The translations under genes were made by a program, and so were the position numbers. Shown here in pieces: positions 3,280 through 64,000 of a stretch of 64,000 nt of DNA. Under the pieces are notes generated by a model that saw nothing but the letters and a program-made list of their open reading frames with translations, searched no databases and was not told the DNA's origin. Position 1 is the stretch's first letter. Each line of letters begins with the position of its first letter. Source of the DNA: Pectinatus brassicae (lineage in GTDB: Bacteria; Bacillota; Negativicutes; Selenomonadales; Selenomonadaceae); the NCBI RefSeq assembly GCF_014201835.1, contig NZ_JACHFH010000015.1, positions 1 to 64,000 on the forward strand, in the 5' to 3' direction.

Positions 3280-4695
3280 TCATAAAAATTTAGACCAGGC
3301 TTTTTTTAATCTATGTACACAATCAGGAATATCTTTTAAAGAAATTTTACTAAAGCCTAAAAAAAGTGTATTATCAGGGCAGTCTGCTCTATCCTGCCAA
3401 AATTGCATTGTAGGATAAACTTGGACGGACTGTTTTTTGGCGGCGATAATCAATTCAGACTGCTGGACATCGGCAGCAAATTCCAATAGGAAATATTGTC
3501 CGCTGTTATTGCCAATGATTTTAATTTTATCATTAAAAATACTAAATTCTTTATTAAAAAGCTCTAAACGTTTGCGAAATATACTATTAAGCCGCCTAAT
3601 ATGACGGTCATATTCACCGTTTTCCAGTAAATAAGCAACTACATATTGATTTAGGATAGGAACAGTACTGTTATAATTTTGGAATTTATCCATATAAATT
3701 TCTAGTAACTGTGGTGGTAAAATTATATATCCCATGCGCAGTGAGGGTGATAGTCCTTTGGAGAAAGTCCCAAGATAAATTACATTATTATTTTCATCAA
3801 TGGACTGTAAGGATGGTATTTGCTTGGCATAATAACGCAGCTCGCTGTCAAAATCATCTTCTAATATATAGGAAGTATTTGTTTTAGCCCACGTTAATAA
3901 TTCTAATCGTCTATGTATTGGCATTGTGATACCGGTGGGAAATTGATGCGAAGGTGTTGAATAGATTAGGCAGCTTGATATGTCTTGGGGAAATTTATTG
4001 ACATTAATACCGTATTTATCAATCGGAATAGTCTTGATTTTTAAGTTGTTATTTTTAAATACAGCGGCAGCTTTATGATAACCAGGTTCTTCCATTAAAA
4101 CGGAAGGTCTCTTATCATGTAATAACTTACAAATAATATCTAATGATTGCTGTAGTCCGCAGGTTATTATAATTTGTTCAGGCTGGCATTTAACACCACG
4201 AATTCTTCTGAGATAAGCAAGTAAATTTTCCCGCAGATATATTTCTCCCTGTTTGTCTAAATGTGAAGATAATCGTGCTTGCTGGTCGAGAATATCAAGG
4301 CATTTTATTGTAGTGCGGCGCCAGAGCGTTTTAGGAAATAAATCATTGGTATGGCTGCCATTAGTTAAGTCATATTTAATGTCTTGTGCTTTATAAGTAG
4401 CTGGCAATGGCTTTTTTATCACTAAAAAAGGTTGTGCAGATGTGGTGATGGACAATTTAGGCAAAGCAGTAATTATATAGCCAACACCTTTTTGGGCAAT
4501 GATATATCCTTCTGTAGCTAATTGGCTATAGGCAGTATCAACAGTATTGCGGCTGATATGTAAAGTTTGGGCTAAGGTACGGCTGCCTGTCAAAATAGTG
4601 CCTTCTTTTAAAACATGCAGTAGTATATCAGTTTTTATTTGGTTATAAATTTGTAAGTATAAAGGTTGTTTAGTATTTTTATTAAGATAAATCAT
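3280..4695 (-). CDS. MocR/PdxR-type regulator (GntR HTH + aminotransferase domain)
   Basis: A 471-residue regulator. The ATG at 4695 is chosen because GGAGG lies 8 bases upstream. Residues 1-75 form a GntR winged helix (PLYLQIYNQIKTDI, then SRTLAQTLHISRNTVDTAY). From about residue 100 onward it is a fold-type I aminotransferase domain with LTNGSHTNDLFP, the ILEDDFDSELRY loop and a PLP lysine in GTFSKGLSPSLRMGY. MocR proteins use PLP or an amino compound as effector. It faces azlCD across a 200-base divergent region carrying three copies of a GGCAC-type motif. Control of azlCD and of itself is therefore the simplest reading. Confidence 0.92.
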   Translation of the reverse strand: MIYLNKNTKQPLYLQIYNQIKTDILLHVLKEGTILTGSRTLAQTLHISRNTVDTAYSQLATEGYIIAQKGVGYIITALPKLSITTSAQPFLVIKKPLPATYKAQDIKYDLTNGSHTNDLFPKTLWRRTTIKCLDILDQQARLSSHLDKQGEIYLRENLLAYLRRIRGVKCQPEQIIITCGLQQSLDIICKLLHDKRPSVLMEEPGYHKAAAVFKNNNLKIKTIPIDKYGINVNKFPQDISSCLIYSTPSHQFPTGITMPIHRRLELLTWAKTNTSYILEDDFDSELRYYAKQIPSLQSIDENNNVIYLGTFSKGLSPSLRMGYIILPPQLLEIYMDKFQNYNSTVPILNQYVVAYLLENGEYDRHIRRLNSIFRKRLELFNKEFSIFNDKIKIIGNNSGQYFLLEFAADVQQSELIIAAKKQSVQVYPTMQFWQDRADCPDNTLFLGFSKISLKDIPDCVHRLKKAWSKFL

Positions 4696-4717
4696 AATAT
4701 TATCCTCCAAATAAAAT

Positions 4718-4765
4718 GGTGGCACTGTTTTTTTATTATTTAGTGGCTCTTATATAAGTGCCACT
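4718..4765. promoter_or_regulatory. Probable MocR operator (three 9-bp motifs)
   Basis: GGTGGCACT (4718-4726) and AGTGGCTCT (4742-4750) lie in direct orientation with starts 24 bp apart. AGTGCCACT (4757-4765) is the inverted form AGTGGCACT. Paired direct and inverted sites close to the regulator's own start (4695) and upstream of azlC fit a MocR binding region. The motifs are seen directly; the assignment is inference. Confidence 0.55.
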
Positions 4766-4894
4766 TTTAGTGTATCATAAATAAAAAATAAAACAAACGA
4801 TTATAATAAGAATAAAATTTGACAGTAATACTTAAAAAGTGTAATATTGTAAAAATATATTGTATACAATAATAGTTTGGAAAGCGAGGTAATT

Positions 4895-5596
4895 ATGTCT
4901 GTACAAAAGGCTGCTTTTCGCGCAGCGCTGCCCCATACTTTACCAATTTTAGCAGGTTTTTTGTTTTTAGGTATTTCCTATGGTTTTTTAATGATCAGTA
5001 AAGGTTTTTTGCCCTTATATCCTATTTTTATGAGTATGTTTATATTTGCCGGTTCTATGGAATTCGTTACAATGGGGCTATTATTAACAACTTTTAATCC
5101 GTTAGCGGCATTTATACTGACATTAACAGTAAATGCCAGACACATTTTTTATGGTATTTCCATGCTGGATAAATTTAAGCATATGGGAAAAAAGAAATTA
5201 TATCTTATTTTTGGTATGTGCGATGAAAGTTTTGCCATAAATTATGCCACCAGAGTCCCCAATGGAATTGATAAAGACTGGTTTATGTTTTTCGTTACCT
5301 TGTTGAATCATATTTATTGGGTTGGCGGAGCTACTATCGGGGCAATACTTGGCAAGTATATACATATTGATACTACGGGGATAGATTTTGTTATGGCAGC
5401 ATTATTTATCGTGATTTTTCTTGAGCAATGGCTGCAAAATGCTCAGCATAGCTTTTCATTATTGGGGCTATTTATTTCAGGCTGTTGCTTATTGTTATTT
5501 AATGATAATTTTATAATTCCGGCGATGATTTGCATCGTGGTAAGCTTTTTATTATTAAAGAAAGTAAAAGAGGTGAAGGCCGATGCAGTCAACTAG
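4895..5596 (+). CDS. azlC: AzlC-family branched-chain amino acid exporter, large subunit
   Basis: A 233-residue integral membrane protein of the AzlC family. It shows [19 protein letters not shown] near the start, then [13 protein letters not shown] and the conserved [11 protein letters not shown]. Several hydrophobic helices follow. The ATG at 4895 is preferred over a TTG at 4877 because GCGAGGT sits just ahead of it and the extra residues would overlap the ribosome site. With the 111-residue AzlD it forms the bicomponent exporter of branched-chain amino acids or analogues. The 14-base overlap with azlD implies translational coupling. The divergent MocR gene is the likely regulator. Confidence 0.93.
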
Positions 5597-58594: not shown

Positions 58595-58626
58595 AAGAAG
58601 CAAAGTTCTTGGAAAGGTTGGAGGAT

Positions 58627-59421
58627 ATGCAGATATTATATTATGACTGTTTTTGTGGAATTAGTGGCGATATGAATTTAGGTGCTCTTTTAGATTTAGG
58701 GGTAAATGAAAACTATCTGCGGGAAGAATTAGCAAAATTATATATACAAGATGAATACGAATTGCAGATAAAAAGGGACTGCAAAAATGGTATTACAGGA
58801 ACAAGAGTAGAAGTTGTTTTGGCGGGTCAGCATGCAGAGCATGTTATACATGAAAAGAATCATGAACATGTACACAAACATGAAACTGATGTTCATACGC
58901 ATCAACATCAGCATCGCAATTTAAAAGATATTGAAATTATTATAAAAAACAGTAGCTTGTCAGAAAAGATTCAGCAAATAAGCATGGATATTTTTCATAA
59001 AATTGCAGTAGCCGAGGCAAAGGTTCATGGCAAAGATCTGTATGAGGTTCATTTTCATGAAGTTGGGGCGACGGATTCTATTATTGATATCGTCGGTGCA
59101 GGTATTTGTTTAGCGGCTTTACAGGTAGATAAAGTAGTGGCATCAACAATTGAATTAGGCGGCGGCTGGGCGAATTGTGCTCATGGTAAAATACCAGTGC
59201 CTGCACCAGCTACTGTAGAAATTGTAAAAAACTTACCGACTAAATTAGGTATAGTTCCTTTTGAAACTACTACCCCTACTGGGGCAGCTATTTTAGCATC
59301 GTCAGTGGTTGAATTTACGGATAAAATTAATTTTTCCATTGAAAAAATTGGTTATGGCATAGGTCATAGAGATTTAGCTATTCCCAATGTATTACGAGTT
59401 TATTTAGGAAAAGTTAATTAA
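58627..59421 (+). CDS. larC: LarC N-terminal part (nickel-pincer cofactor insertion), C-terminal part absent
   Basis: 264 residues. Signature MQILYYDCFCGISGDMNLGA at the N-terminus, a His-rich loop (about 76-105, HxHxxxHxH repeats that bind nickel), HFHEVGATDSIIDIVGAGI and TTPTGAAILAS. LarC puts nickel into the pincer cofactor of lactate racemase and related enzymes. Full LarC is about 400 residues; in Lactobacillus the two halves larC1 and larC2 are joined by programmed frameshifting. Here the gene stops at about the LarC1 boundary, and only eight bases later a convergent gene ends, so LarC2 is missing. No larA, larB or larE lies nearby. Confidence 0.87.
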   Translation: MQILYYDCFCGISGDMNLGALLDLGVNENYLREELAKLYIQDEYELQIKRDCKNGITGTRVEVVLAGQHAEHVIHEKNHEHVHKHETDVHTHQHQHRNLKDIEIIIKNSSLSEKIQQISMDIFHKIAVAEAKVHGKDLYEVHFHEVGATDSIIDIVGAGICLAALQVDKVVASTIELGGGWANCAHGKIPVPAPATVEIVKNLPTKLGIVPFETTTPTGAAILASSVVEFTDKINFSIEKIGYGIGHRDLAIPNVLRVYLGKVN

Positions 59422-59429
59422 TAGATAAT

Positions 59430-61331
59430 TTAAAAGCATATTGTTTCACAAATACATTTACTGAATTCTTTATAGTTGACAGCTTTTATTATTTTATGAA
59501 GAATATCAATTTCTTGTAAGGTATTAATAATTAAATCCAGTGAATACTGCATAATTTCCCAATCATCAGGATGCAGTGTAATAATAAAAATAATATCAAT
59601 GGGATTATTATTGATTATACGAGGTTTTTTATTAACTATTGTCACAAGACCTGTTTTTTTTACATTATGAAAAATAATGTCAGCAACAGCTATATGTCCA
59701 AAGGTATTGAAATGGATTTTATATTCAGTAGAACATTTAGAACAGGCTGCGATATATTCATTATTTTCAAGAAGGTTTTGTGTTTGTTGTTTTATAGATT
59801 CTAAGCTGCATTGTGCAGGAATATGTTTAAAAAGCGTTTCATTTCCGAAGTTATTAAAAAAATTTTGGATTATGGAGCGTTTTTTTTGTGCCTTTTTTGT
59901 TATAATATGCTGCTTGATATTTTGTATTGTCTTTGTGGAAAGCAATGCGTCAGTGACAACCCAATCAGTATTAAAGCCAATTGGCAATGGAACCGTTGTA
60001 ATTATTAAATCCACTTTTTTTAGTTGTGACAATTCTTTTTCACAGCAAAGTATCTGTCTGACTGATATATCGTTAGAAAAATTACGCTGAAGATTTTCTT
60101 TTAATTCTTTATCATAGTCAAAATATGGCGTGATTAATAGTGCACAAGATATTTTTTCAAAATCGAATTTATGTTTACTGGCCAGATTTAGTCCAATATG
60201 TAAGGCAAGATAGGCACAGGAATCTTCATTTATAATGACAGCAGTAATTTTTTGTATTTCATTAGCAATTGCAGCGGTACATTTAAAAGCAAATGGCGAT
60301 GCAATTTTCATATCATTTTTACGGGGATCATAGCTTATATGCCCGGTACTTAGTCGGCATAATAAATTATGAAGATTTAAAGCAAAACGAATCATGAAAC
60401 GTTCGTTTAAATCAATAAAGGGAAGTAAACAGCGTATTTTTTGGAAAAGATCATTAAAGAACTTTTCTGATTTTTTAGGCATACGTTTTTTTAATGCTGT
60501 TATTGATAAGTGATTAAAATCAGCAGGCAATAAATATCCTAATAAGAGTTCCTGTATATATTTTTCCTCGATAGAAACTACTTTAATATTATAAAATTTT
60601 TGAATATAGTCAAAAATAGCTTGAGAGATTGGACTAGTTGATAATTGAACTAGTGACTTGCTGATAATGTGATTGTGCTGTATACGTTCCATAGTTATAA
60701 GTATTTCTAAAATTAAATTAAAAATTAAACAATCATTGATAAAATAATTTTGTTTCGATGATTGTTGCAATAATAAATCATATAGTTCATCAATAGGTGC
60801 TTTAGGAAAAATTTGCTGCAATGATGATGTACATACTTTATCTTTACTTAGTGTTTCACAAAGAACAAAATTTAAAAGATTGCGGATATCAGTTTCAAGT
60901 CCGGTTAAATAAATATAGTCGGCATTAATGCGGGCTTTTATTTTGTATTTTTTTATTTTACGTTTAAGCAATATAAGATCCTTATGGAGTGTTTCAGTAC
61001 TTACGCAAAGTTTTTCTGCAGCAGTAACAATATTTATCTGGTTATCTGAGTCTGCTGAAAGCAACGAATTTTTTAAAAGCCAATTGATGCGTTCATTTGC
61101 TGTTTGTGGTGATAAATTATTTCTAGCAATAAGAGCGCGTCCTCGTGTTTTATCAATACGGTATCCTTTATATGATGATGTGATAAGTTGCGGATGAAAA
61201 AAATTAATATCTGAGATATATGACATTACTGTACGGGTTGAAACAGAAAGCTTGTCAGCTATTGCGGCAGCTGTAAGTAAAATATTGGTATTAATTAATA
61301 GATATATTAAATCGAAGTGTTTTGAATTCAC
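59430..61331 (-). CDS. PRD-containing transcriptional regulator (BglG/MtlR type)
   Basis: 633 residues from a GTG with AAGGGGA eight bases ahead. Two N-terminal HTH modules (AAAIADKLSVSTRTVMSYIS; AEKLCVSTETLHKDLILLKR), two PRD-like domains (about 170-400), an EIIB-like domain whose usual Cys loop is degenerate (CALLITPYFDYDKEL), and an EIIA-like C-terminus (about 530-625) with His in FGHIAVADI. Such proteins normally activate PTS sugar operons. Here it is divergent from a respiratory-type flavin reductase operon, which it probably regulates. That pairing is unusual. Confidence 0.85.
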   Translation of the reverse strand: MNSKHFDLIYLLINTNILLTAAAIADKLSVSTRTVMSYISDINFFHPQLITSSYKGYRIDKTRGRALIARNNLSPQTANERINWLLKNSLLSADSDNQINIVTAAEKLCVSTETLHKDLILLKRKIKKYKIKARINADYIYLTGLETDIRNLLNFVLCETLSKDKVCTSSLQQIFPKAPIDELYDLLLQQSSKQNYFINDCLIFNLILEILITMERIQHNHIISKSLVQLSTSPISQAIFDYIQKFYNIKVVSIEEKYIQELLLGYLLPADFNHLSITALKKRMPKKSEKFFNDLFQKIRCLLPFIDLNERFMIRFALNLHNLLCRLSTGHISYDPRKNDMKIASPFAFKCTAAIANEIQKITAVIINEDSCAYLALHIGLNLASKHKFDFEKISCALLITPYFDYDKELKENLQRNFSNDISVRQILCCEKELSQLKKVDLIITTVPLPIGFNTDWVVTDALLSTKTIQNIKQHIITKKAQKKRSIIQNFFNNFGNETLFKHIPAQCSLESIKQQTQNLLENNEYIAACSKCSTEYKIHFNTFGHIAVADIIFHNVKKTGLVTIVNKKPRIINNNPIDIIFIITLHPDDWEIMQYSLDLIINTLQEIDILHKIIKAVNYKEFSKCICETICF

Positions 61332-61399
61332 TAAAAAATCCCCTTGTTTTTTTCAATAATTAAAATTTATCACGCGATAATATATTTTGCAATATTTTT

Positions 61400-61460
61400 T
61401 TGCAGATTAGCTCTGCAATACTTTATTTGTTTTGATAAACAATTATGATTAAACTATATG
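61400..61460 (+). promoter_or_regulatory. Operator and promoter of the flavin reductase operon
   Basis: TTGCAGA (61400-61406), five bases, TCTGCAA (61412-61418) is a perfect palindrome 14 bases upstream of TTGATA (61432-61437), 17 bases, TATATG (61455-61460). Its place ahead of the -35 fits an activator site, perhaps for the divergent PRD regulator. Confidence 0.6.
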
Positions 61461-61497
61461 TATAAATTATAAGTACATATCTAAAAGAGGGATAAAT

Positions 61498-63249
61498 ATG
61501 TCGAATAATATTGAAAAGAAACATGAAATAGCTCGTCGTACATTTTTAAAAGATAGTGCATTGGCTGTTGGTACTGCAATAACAGGCAGTCTGCTTTTAT
61601 CGGGATGCAGCAAAAATCCAAATGATTATTTAAGAGAGCCAAAACCAAAATCAGAAATTTCTTCTGATTGGTTAGGTAAAGCACCTGATATACCAGAAAG
61701 TAAAATTAACGAAACAAAAACAGCTGACGTTGTTATTGTAGGTGCTGGAGTTGCCGGACTGGCAGCAGCACGGGCAGCTTCTGAAAATGGAGCTTCTGTT
61801 ATAGTTGTAGAAAAAGCTGGAACATGGCAATGCCGCAGTGGTCAATATGGTACATTAAATAATAAGATTCAACGTTCTATGGGAATTACATTTGATAAGA
61901 ATACGGCTATTCTGGAAAATATGAAACAAATGGGCTATCGTAGTGACCAGCGTGTTTGGAATTATTGGGCAGAACACAGTGGTAAAGATTTTGATTGGCT
62001 TTTGGAAATGGCACCGGATTTAAATGTAATAGAAGAAACTAAATTAGATGATATTGACCGCAATAAAATAAATTTAATGATAATGCATTATCCAACTCCG
62101 GCGGGCTATAACAGAGATGAAGAAAACAGCCCGTCTTATCCTACTGTTATGGCATTTTTGCCAAGCCAGGAACCAATCCAAACAAGAGTATATAACAAAT
62201 GTAAAGAACAAGGCTGCAAATTTATTTTTTCGACACGAGCAATAAAGCTTATACGCCCAGACAATAAAGGTCGTGTTCAGGGAGTAATAGCTCAGCATGT
62301 TAATGGCAAATATATAAAACTTAAAGCAAAAAAAGCAGTAATATTAACTGCAGGTGACTATGGCAATAATAAATCTATGATGAAACATTTTGTGCCTTAT
62401 GCAATGGATTATGTAAATGTTTTTCCAAATAGGGATGCTAAAGATAAGCCTACTAATACTGGGGATGGTCATATTATGGCTGTATGGGCTGGTGCTAAAA
62501 TTGAAGATGGTCCACATGCACCAGTAATCCATACTTTAGGCGGACCAATGGGAACAGATGCATATTTTCTTGCAAATGCTAAAGGAGATAGGTTCGTAAA
62601 TGAAGATATTGGCGGGCAGCAGCTTTCTAATGCCATTTATCGTCAGCCGCAAAATTTTGCATGGCAGATCCTTGATGATAAATGGCCGGAACAGTTGCAG
62701 GATATGGGAGTAGCTCATGGTAGTGTTAATTACTGTCTTCCAGCTTCAGAAAATCCTAAAGTGCCAGCAGATTGCCAGTGGTCCATTGGACGCATGGGTT
62801 ATACTTCACGTGAAGATTTTTTAAAAACAAAAGATCTTATTGTTGCACAAAGCCTTGAAGAACTAGCTAAAAAATTATGTCCGAAAAGTATACAGGATCA
62901 AAAAAATCTTCTTGCTTCGATTAAACGTTATAATGAACTTTGCCACAAAGGACATGATGAAGATTTTGGAAAAATGAAAAAAAGAATGTTCTCAATTGAA
63001 ACAGCACCATTTTATGCAGGAAAAATGGTTGGCGGGGCAATGCTTGTCAATATGGGTGGACTTACTGTAAACCCCGAAACTGGCAATGTTTTAGATAGAG
63101 ATTATAATGGGATTGAAGGACTTTATACGGCAGGTAATACTCAGGGCGGAAGATTCCTGGTAGATTATCCAATCGTTACAGCTGGTGTGAGCCATGCATT
63201 TGCACTCGTTTATGGCCGGCTTGTTGGTACGGTAGCAGCAAAACTTTAA
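61498..63249 (+). CDS. Tat-exported, lipobox-bearing FAD-dependent fumarate reductase-like flavoprotein
   Basis: 583 residues. The N-terminus has a Tat motif (ARRTFLKDSALAVG) and a lipobox (LLLSGC) with Cys about residue 37, so it is likely anchored on the outer face of the inner membrane. The FAD fold begins ADVVIVGAGVAGLAAARAA, and the C-terminal part (IGRMGYTSREDFLKT, GGRFLVDYPIVTAGVSHAF) matches the flavocytochrome c / urocanate-fumarate reductase family. It reduces an unsaturated carboxylate or similar acceptor. The electron donor is the multihaem cytochrome encoded next. The real substrate is unknown. Confidence 0.88.
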   Translation: MSNNIEKKHEIARRTFLKDSALAVGTAITGSLLLSGCSKNPNDYLREPKPKSEISSDWLGKAPDIPESKINETKTADVVIVGAGVAGLAAARAASENGASVIVVEKAGTWQCRSGQYGTLNNKIQRSMGITFDKNTAILENMKQMGYRSDQRVWNYWAEHSGKDFDWLLEMAPDLNVIEETKLDDIDRNKINLMIMHYPTPAGYNRDEENSPSYPTVMAFLPSQEPIQTRVYNKCKEQGCKFIFSTRAIKLIRPDNKGRVQGVIAQHVNGKYIKLKAKKAVILTAGDYGNNKSMMKHFVPYAMDYVNVFPNRDAKDKPTNTGDGHIMAVWAGAKIEDGPHAPVIHTLGGPMGTDAYFLANAKGDRFVNEDIGGQQLSNAIYRQPQNFAWQILDDKWPEQLQDMGVAHGSVNYCLPASENPKVPADCQWSIGRMGYTSREDFLKTKDLIVAQSLEELAKKLCPKSIQDQKNLLASIKRYNELCHKGHDEDFGKMKKRMFSIETAPFYAGKMVGGAMLVNMGGLTVNPETGNVLDRDYNGIEGLYTAGNTQGGRFLVDYPIVTAGVSHAFALVYGRLVGTVAAKL

Positions 63250-63263
63250 AGGATGTGAAATAA

Positions 63264-63794
63264 ATGAAAAAAATAACAATGAAACAATTAAAACAGCCAA
63301 AAGTATGGGGTAGTCTATGTATTTTGATAATTGTTTTTTGTGGTATAGGTTATGCAGCAATGAAAACTGTTAGTGCGCGGCCAGCATTTTGTGCAAGTTG
63401 TCATAATATGCAGACCTATTATGATACTTATACTAAAGGTCATTTGCTTGCTAAAAAACATGCTGAGGCTGGTGTTACTTGCCATGATTGTCATGAACCT
63501 AGCCTTGGTCAGCAAATGGATGAAGGATTAAAATTTATTACTGGGAACTACAAAGAGCCATTACCAGAGTATGAATATTCAAATGAACAGTGTTTAAAAT
63601 GTCATAATTTTGATGATGTGAAAGCTAAAACAGCTAAATATGGCAAGGCTAATCCACATGATTCTACTCATGCCAAGGGCAATCAACCACCACAATGTTA
63701 TGAATGTCATAGTGTACATCATTTACAATCAGCAAAAAAATGCAATACCTGTCATACTGTAGACTGGGTATTGGATGATAGCTGGGAAAAATAA
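63264..63794 (+). CDS. NapC/NirT-type multihaem cytochrome c, five CxxCH motifs
   Basis: 176 residues with one N-terminal membrane anchor (about 14-35, VWGSLCILIIVFCGIGYA). Haem-binding motifs are CASCH, CHDCH, CLKCH, CYECH and CNTCH, five in total, where NapC/NrfH members usually have four. It moves electrons from the quinol pool to the flavoprotein encoded upstream. AGGATGTG lies ahead of the ATG. It ends with an overlap (TAATG) onto the next frame. Confidence 0.93.
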   Translation: MKKITMKQLKQPKVWGSLCILIIVFCGIGYAAMKTVSARPAFCASCHNMQTYYDTYTKGHLLAKKHAEAGVTCHDCHEPSLGQQMDEGLKFITGNYKEPLPEYEYSNEQCLKCHNFDDVKAKTAKYGKANPHDSTHAKGNQPPQCYECHSVHHLQSAKKCNTCHTVDWVLDDSWEK

Positions 63795-64000
63795 TGGGAA
63801 TCAGCATTATTTACAAAAAAATCACCCAAAAATTTAATGATCATGAATTATTTAATAATTTATCCGGCATAATAAAACCGTATAATATTACAGTAATTAC
63901 TGGTCTTAATGGTGCTGGTAAATCAACATTAAGCAAAATTTTGACAGGACAATTATATCCGTCAGAAGGTAAAATTAGTTATTGGCAAAATGATGTTTTG
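63794..64000 (+). CDS. ABC transporter ATPase, CcmA-like (partial, cut by window end)
   Basis: The ATG overlaps the cytochrome stop codon by one base. The visible 69 residues include a Walker A GLNGAGKST (about 40-48) followed by LSKILTGQLYPSEGKIS. This is the opening of an ABC ATPase. Next to a multihaem cytochrome the likely role is haem export for cytochrome maturation (CcmA), but the visible part alone cannot separate CcmA from other small ABC ATPases. Confidence 0.75.
   Translation, partial: MGISIIYKKITQKFNDHELFNNLSGIIKPYNITVITGLNGAGKSTLSKILTGQLYPSEGKISYWQNDVL

Follow-up and report, generated by a model that had tools for sequence, protein, structure and literature searches.

In a 64,000-nucleotide stretch of DNA from Pectinatus brassicae (hereafter the window), a PRD regulator of the sugar-PTS kind is encoded opposite an operon for a respiratory flavin reductase, which raises the question of what such a regulator does at this place and to which signal it responds. 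The regulator gene (59430..61331, minus strand; 633 amino acids) and the divergent flavoprotein gene (61498..63249, plus strand; 583 amino acids) are separated by 166 bases. The flavoprotein matches the Pfam family FAD_binding_2 (E 1.8e-44) and carries a twin-arginine motif and a lipobox cysteine, with RR13-14 and Cys37 being invariant among 14 aligned sequences. It is followed on the plus strand by a membrane-anchored, NrfH/NapC/Cgr1-like cytochrome of 176 amino acids (63264..63794), recognised through Pfam and NCBIfam and containing five CXXCH motifs as read from the translation, and by ccmA (63794..64000), which is cut by the window end. Further along the same contig, ccmB, ccmC, ccmE, ccmF and a 130-amino-acid ORF occupy positions of about 64356-68403. 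Gene calls and Pfam thus agree with the original prediction, in which a PRD regulator was placed opposite a lipoprotein flavoprotein, a cytochrome and an ABC ATPase; the last of these can now be named CcmA, and the ccm series runs on past the window edge.

Two neighbouring genes deserve mention. The ORF after ccmF (L004:10011-10403) has a signal-peptide-like start and no family in Pfam or NCBIfam. On the other side, a LarC-like nickel-insertion protein (58609-59421) matches only positions 1-234 of the 375 of PF01969; its stop codon lies 9 bases from the 3' end of the regulator gene, so that the usual C-terminal part is missing here.

Domain architecture of the regulator

The regulator has the domain order HTH_11, Mga-type HTH, PRD1, PRD2, EIIB-like and EIIA-like, as established from Pfam, from a structure model compared with MgaSpn and AtxA by Foldseek, and from hhalign comparison of the C-terminus. 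These are the parts that make up the MtlR/LicR-type architecture. In Pfam, HTH_11 and PRD scored above their cut-offs, the latter over two stretches, the Mga HTH was sub-threshold, and the EIIB-like and EIIA-like domains had no match at E<=1. The model has a mean pLDDT of 68.9, with residues 488-615 below 50 and the EIIA part accordingly of low confidence. Its best fold matches were MgaSpn 5way (E 6e-12), the Mga-family protein 3sqn (1e-11) and AtxA 4r6i (2e-11), with 9atx also among them, and these Mga/AtxA-fold matches span the EIIB part. No sequence match was found in the PDB by phmmer at E<=1, nor in a scan of genome contigs with the regulator alone as query, and the NCBIfam AcpB/EbpR/MafR model reached 59.7 against a cut-off of 130. 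For the C-terminus, hhalign gave 98.7% when the window and Propionispira regulators were compared with the EIIA C-termini of 20 relatives, and only 2.6% for the Selenomonas ruminantium and red-deer regulator pair alone, in which the EIIA-like domain is partly deleted. As judged from these profiles, the regulator does end in an EIIA-like domain, though a diverged one.

Phosphorylation sites and the likely input

In the available text of one source, the MtlR sites are given as His230 and His289 (PRD1), His342 and His399 (PRD2), Cys419 (EIIB) and His599 (EIIA) (PMC8560693). The equivalent positions were compared in 47 regulators, all distinct and of at least 450 amino acids, obtained as phmmer matches in the fetched loci (78 hits, 49 of them distinct, from which two truncated copies of Selenomonas proteins were dropped); positions were taken from His- or Cys-rich alignment columns, MtlR itself standing outside the alignment. 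The first and second PRD1 histidines occur in 0/4 of the flavoprotein-linked regulators, against 24/43 and 22/43 of the others. The first PRD2 histidine, present in 43/43 others, is Asn in all four (Asn319 in the window, codon 60375..60377, minus strand, equivalent to MtlR His342 by position, as assigned by the order of the sites). At the EIIB position, where 40/43 others have Cys, all four have Ile (Ile400, codon 60132..60134, minus strand), which confirms the degenerate EIIB Cys loop noticed beforehand. The EIIA histidine is likewise found in 0/4 against 43/43; here the four show Asp in two cases and a gap in two, and Asp in 4/4 in two other alignments, the position being alignment-dependent in two of the four rows (Asp551, codon 59679..59681, minus strand). 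The second PRD2 histidine (His378, codon 60198..60200, minus strand) is kept in 4/4 and in 39/43 others. Five of the six canonical sites are therefore missing in all four flavoprotein-linked regulators, and His378 is the sole one left.

In a tree of these proteins the four flavoprotein-linked regulators formed one clade (100/100), with two PTS-linked regulators as its sisters (99/97). The tree contains flagged long branches, and the number of separate lineages among the four is only three. The sister regulators, each of which stands beside a PTS operon, are without the EIIB Cys and the first PRD1 His and keep both PRD2 histidines and the EIIA His. The description of the window regulator as sugar-type agrees with this placement, its closest relatives being sugar-PTS regulators.

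With 1/6 sites kept, the regulator has been filed as a variant of the MtlR/LicR architecture and not as a PTS-controlled regulator. Because most of the residues that convey PTS signals to MtlR are absent, its sugar-PTS input has probably been lost, and the main input would probably be something other than sugar-PTS state; since His378 survives, residual HPr control is possible. The best reading of the sequences appears to be a regulator largely uncoupled from the PTS, with an operator and promoter geometry in common with sugar operons.

A stronger version of this uncoupling can be advanced tentatively. The clade may have turned into one-component sensors that work without the PTS and respond to electron-acceptor or redox state, with the PRD2 Asn and the EIIA Asp fixed and with the old EIIB/EIIA part sensing a ligand or redox partner, so that it would gate a c-type cytochrome system that is possibly the only one in this organism. 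In the opposite direction, the original prediction was that reduction may be linked to PTS state or carbon supply; on this view HPr~P would phosphorylate PRD2 His378 and respiration would track carbon supply. His378 is indeed kept in 4/4, an HPr is encoded in the genome, and PRD regulators are classic HPr targets; the H342D exchange in MtlR relieves glucose repression, according to the available text (PMC3217849). Against this stands the loss in 4/4 of five of the six sites, two of which (the first PRD2 His and the EIIA His) are retained by every one of the 43 other regulators; His378 is common to most relatives too and may be structural. Control of the operon by PTS state is on balance rather unlikely, and the reading preferred here is that of a regulator uncoupled from the PTS for the most part.

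The palindrome and the promoter

An exact operator-like palindrome, TTGCAGA-TTAGC-TCTGCAA (61400..61418, no strand), lies in the intergenic gap. It is followed on the plus strand by a conserved element, TTTATTTG (61422..61429), by the predicted -35 hexamer TTGTTT, which the element overlaps (61427..61432), and, after 17 bases, by the predicted -10 hexamer TAAACT (61450..61455). The palindrome would thus be close upstream of a sigma-A type -35, where an operator is expected for MtlR/LicR-type activators. The perfect 7-5-7 palindrome had been described correctly, whereas its distance of 14 bases to the -35 has to be revised: the conserved -35 TTGTTT starts 8 bases after it, and 14 fits the hexamer TTGATA. 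Within the genome the exact copy is single. Arm length alone is unremarkable, a 7-bp inverted repeat with a loop of 0-12 having been found in 54% of 1000 gap shuffles, and a palindrome with at least 3 G-C pairs was rare (3/1000 gap shuffles).

Conservation of the palindrome, the lack of which had been set as a refuting condition, was found in a subset of relatives, where six promoters carry it in register. They comprise four flavoprotein operons and two sugar-PTS operons beside the sister regulators, and they align ungapped over 60 bases with 19 identical columns (TTGC-N10-TGnA-N4-TTTATTTG-N20-TAnAnT). The element is identical in all six, the -35 keeps its register and TAnAnT stands at the same place; the six are not fully independent, two being near copies and all related by descent. 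Upstream of EIIB, the PTS operons show TTGCAC-N7-GTGCAA palindromes and the same element; both operons begin EIIB-EIIC-EIIA by Pfam, and a GH1 gene was confirmed for Propionispira. The upstream regions of the window, Propionispira and S. ruminantium have in common an ungapped block that includes the palindrome, with 18/34 columns identical in all three, and the red-deer MAG copy differs by one mismatch. A three-way block as good was obtained in 1/300 shuffles at 34 bases and in 0/1500 at both 30 and 40, and the result was less striking at shorter lengths (46/1500 at 20 bases, 108/1500 at 25), all lengths having been picked after the block was seen. A search for exact and near-exact repeats had suggested that the palindrome was lost in the relatives, a view overturned by this block and by the sister PTS promoters.

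Elsewhere in the genome, 19 other palindrome-like places were found at up to 2 mismatches; in the 18 stretches of genome that hold them, no match at <=2 mismatches to the combined site and TTTATTTG was present, the best showing 3 mismatches in 16. When a relaxed 16-base pattern was allowed up to 2 mismatches, about 1.08 Mb of fetched, partly redundant sequence yielded three more places. In the Propionispira genome (G048; L067, L068) the two sister regulators occur together with the two promoter versions, so that a beta-glucoside PTS operon and the respiratory operon may be subject to cross-talk there.

It is improbable that the palindrome serves another factor, or acts as an RNA hairpin or terminator, in place of being the regulator's operator. 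A simple scan does list it as terminator-like, and its sequence is not identical among relatives; however, no plus-strand gene reads into it, it stands upstream of a conserved promoter, and the 19-base site, the element and their spacing are common to six promoters that share only the regulator clade, while eleven 400-base stretches upstream of flavoproteins lacking a PRD regulator reached at best 5/18 mismatches. The most likely role, by analogy with MtlR, is that the regulator activates the divergent operon from the palindrome, and it is as a candidate operator that the palindrome is treated in what follows.

Conservation of the regulator-flavoprotein pair

Recurrence of the divergent pair had likewise been set as a check, and it was found in three genomes besides the window, those of Propionispira raffinosivorans, S. 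ruminantium S137 and a red-deer Selenomonas MAG, at a regulator identity of 32-42%. Among 189 genomes of the family, 9 have flavoprotein relatives of at least 66% identity, the window's own included. The regulator is divergent and adjacent in 4/9 (the window genome, G048, G147 and G168); the remaining five, all oral Selenomonas, have no such regulator next to the flavoprotein. Among 380 genomes of the class, 10 flavoprotein relatives of at least 65% identity were detected, the tenth being that of Sporomusa acidovorans, which is preceded by a PucR-like ORF and followed by ResB/CcsA (System II). When named genomes were scanned, 13 flavoprotein loci were obtained, from P. raffinosivorans, S. ruminantium S137, the red-deer Selenomonas MAG, S. 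felix, S. flueggei, S. artemidis, Selenomonas sp. F0473, S. acidovorans (Sporomusa), four Campylobacter and one 'Proteobacteria' MAG. In the last five the order is a porin-like ORF, the flavoprotein and then the cytochrome, with a response regulator and kinase divergent, an arrangement confirmed by Pfam for one of the five. This two-component system opposite the flavoprotein-cytochrome pair is found at about 3300-5400 in Campylobacter L134-L137 and in the 'Proteobacteria' MAG at L133.

Overall, a PRD regulator accompanies 4/15 flavoprotein relatives (10 of the class and 5 of the named-genome scan), and 11/15 are without one. Since the other relatives carry other regulators or none, the flavoprotein and the cytochrome are, as far as gene order indicates, the core of the module, and the regulator is exchanged. 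In S. ruminantium the flavoprotein is followed by the cytochrome and then by an MFS transporter; that the cytochrome was lacking there proved wrong, an antisense ORF having masked a gene which profile search and frame translation revealed. The DHA2-family transporter follows flavoprotein and cytochrome in both S. ruminantium and the red-deer MAG (L069:8076-9512, L070:3990-5423), a possible hint at transport of substrate or product. That the regulator merely travels with the module and does not regulate it, as the other regulators or none in most flavoprotein relatives might suggest, is highly improbable, since in three lineages whose regulators are 32-42% identical the two genes are still divergent neighbours and an intergenic block is conserved between them.

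The reductase module and its maturation genes

By sequence, the flavoprotein has relatives in 1qo8, 1d4d and 6t85 (E 1e-25 to 1e-21). When aligned with fumarate reductases, the Arg of ELTTRDKAS, which we take to be catalytic, falls on Gly373, and the HHTMGG His pair, presumably substrate-binding, falls on LVNMGG. Because these positions are not kept, the flavoprotein is probably not a fumarate reductase. Its nearest NCBIfam model is vinyl phenol reductase (181 bits against a cut-off of 600), and its structure model, with a mean pLDDT of 55, was left out of the analysis. The combination of a FAD_binding_2 protein bearing a Tat motif, from which export is read, with an adjacent NapC/NrfH-type multihaem cytochrome is Cgr-like.

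The cytochrome is the genome's only PF03264 match, and PF03264 had no match in four congeners; this covers the NapC family, c-type cytochromes of other families being possible. Among the ccm genes, CcmB, Cytochrom_C_asm (twice) and CcmF_C scored above the Pfam cut-offs, and NCBIfam ccmA and ccmE below theirs. Genes of CcmC/CcmF type (PF01578) were found in 1/5 genomes of the genus, with none in the four congeners, and in the window's genome they occur only in the flavoprotein operon. The same restriction applies to Propionispira (G048). The five oral Selenomonas, S. ruminantium and the MAG have them on a different contig or at a distance of some 18-34 kb. In the Sporomusa relative, ResB and CcsA stand directly after the flavoprotein and cytochrome (L119:10996-12758). 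Judging from these gene sets, two different maturation systems are found on one module, System I in the window and Propionispira and System II in the Sporomusa relative.

The description of the locus as a respiratory flavin-reductase operon stands. These Negativicutes have two membranes, however, and the 'extracellular' reduction first proposed is for this reason better read as taking place on the periplasmic side.

Proposed mechanism and significance

We favour, with moderate confidence, a reading in which an activator of MtlR/LicR type with sisters at PTS operons drives a Cgr-like operon, its main input being the acceptor or the redox/energy state. The clade would be a small group of PRD activators of MtlR/LicR architecture whose sister group stands by beta-glucoside-type PTS operons. 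We infer that the regulator binds the 19-bp operator, which resembles an MtlR box and immediately precedes a weak -35, and thereby switches on the divergent operon for the respiratory reductase. Electrons would pass from quinol to the NrfH-type pentahaem cytochrome, from there to the Tat-exported FAD lipoprotein, and finally to a probably organic acceptor, with the ccm genes of the operon maturing the cytochrome. The regulator would be governed by acceptor or redox/energy state, with HPr acting at most as a residual input through His378. In this picture the gene order, the conservation of the operator, the missing sites and the clade are read directly from the sequences, and binding, activation, the electron path and the input are proposals built on them.

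In the open-licence literature (subscription papers lie mostly outside that scope, and this is weak evidence), no description was found of a respiratory reductase operon under a PRD regulator, and there was nothing relevant on PRD regulators with cytochromes or anaerobic respiration, on Pectinatus or Propionispira cytochromes, or on gut flavin reductases. The parts are of known kinds, and what is new is their combination and an apparent rewiring. The locus looks like a clean natural case in which a PTS-controlled activator has been rewired: sister regulators with one operator class and promoter spacing stand in one group by a sugar PTS operon and in the other by a respiratory operon. Since the respiratory group lacks the PTS contact residues, the locus offers a way to test the roles of PRD, EIIB and EIIA once the PTS is silent, a question that also concerns virulence regulators of the same fold. 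A single operon, predicted to be regulated, contains all CcmC/CcmF-type genes detected in the genome together with the one NapC-family cytochrome found there.

Comparison with known systems

The haem maturation genes resemble System I, with ccmA, B, C, E and F present and in order; unlike the usual System I, they are joined to a flavin reductase operon, and neither ccmG nor ccmH was seen in the contig stretch read beyond the window. The flavoprotein shares sequence ancestry with flavocytochrome c fumarate reductase and urocanate reductase, and differs from the former in lacking the Arg and the His pair. In the cardiac glycoside reductase Cgr1/Cgr2 of Eggerthella lenta, a Tat-exported FAD_binding_2 flavoprotein likewise stands next to a NapC/NrfH-like PF14537 cytochrome, as far as the available text describes it (PMC5953540). 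Here, in contrast, the gene order is reversed, ccm genes are attached and the Cgr1 model scores 59.6 against a cut-off of 340. The likeness to Cgr2 is drawn from the genes alone, Cgr2 itself having a [4Fe-4S] cluster and reducing cardenolides, and hence the window flavoprotein is not filed as Cgr2.

The PRD-containing virulence regulators Mga, AtxA, AcpB and MafR provide the best fold matches of the regulator, and departures from PTS phosphorylation have been discussed for them too. In the accessible part of that source they are described as being without an EIIA-like domain (PMC8560693), whereas the regulator described here has a diverged one. The closest likeness in domain order (HTH, Mga HTH, PRD, PRD, EIIB, EIIA) is to LicR and to MtlR, the mannitol activator of Bacillus subtilis. 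The available texts present MtlR as an activator that uses a TTGTCA-N7-TGCCAA box near the -35 (PMC10992428, PMC3217849), a palindromic site needed for induction at a promoter with weak -35 and -10 hexamers (PMC3217849). In both cases 6-7-6 inverted repeats lie just upstream of the -35, here as TTGCAG-N7-CTGCAA. Unlike MtlR and LicR, the regulator is without five of the six phosphorylation positions, and its target is a respiratory operon.
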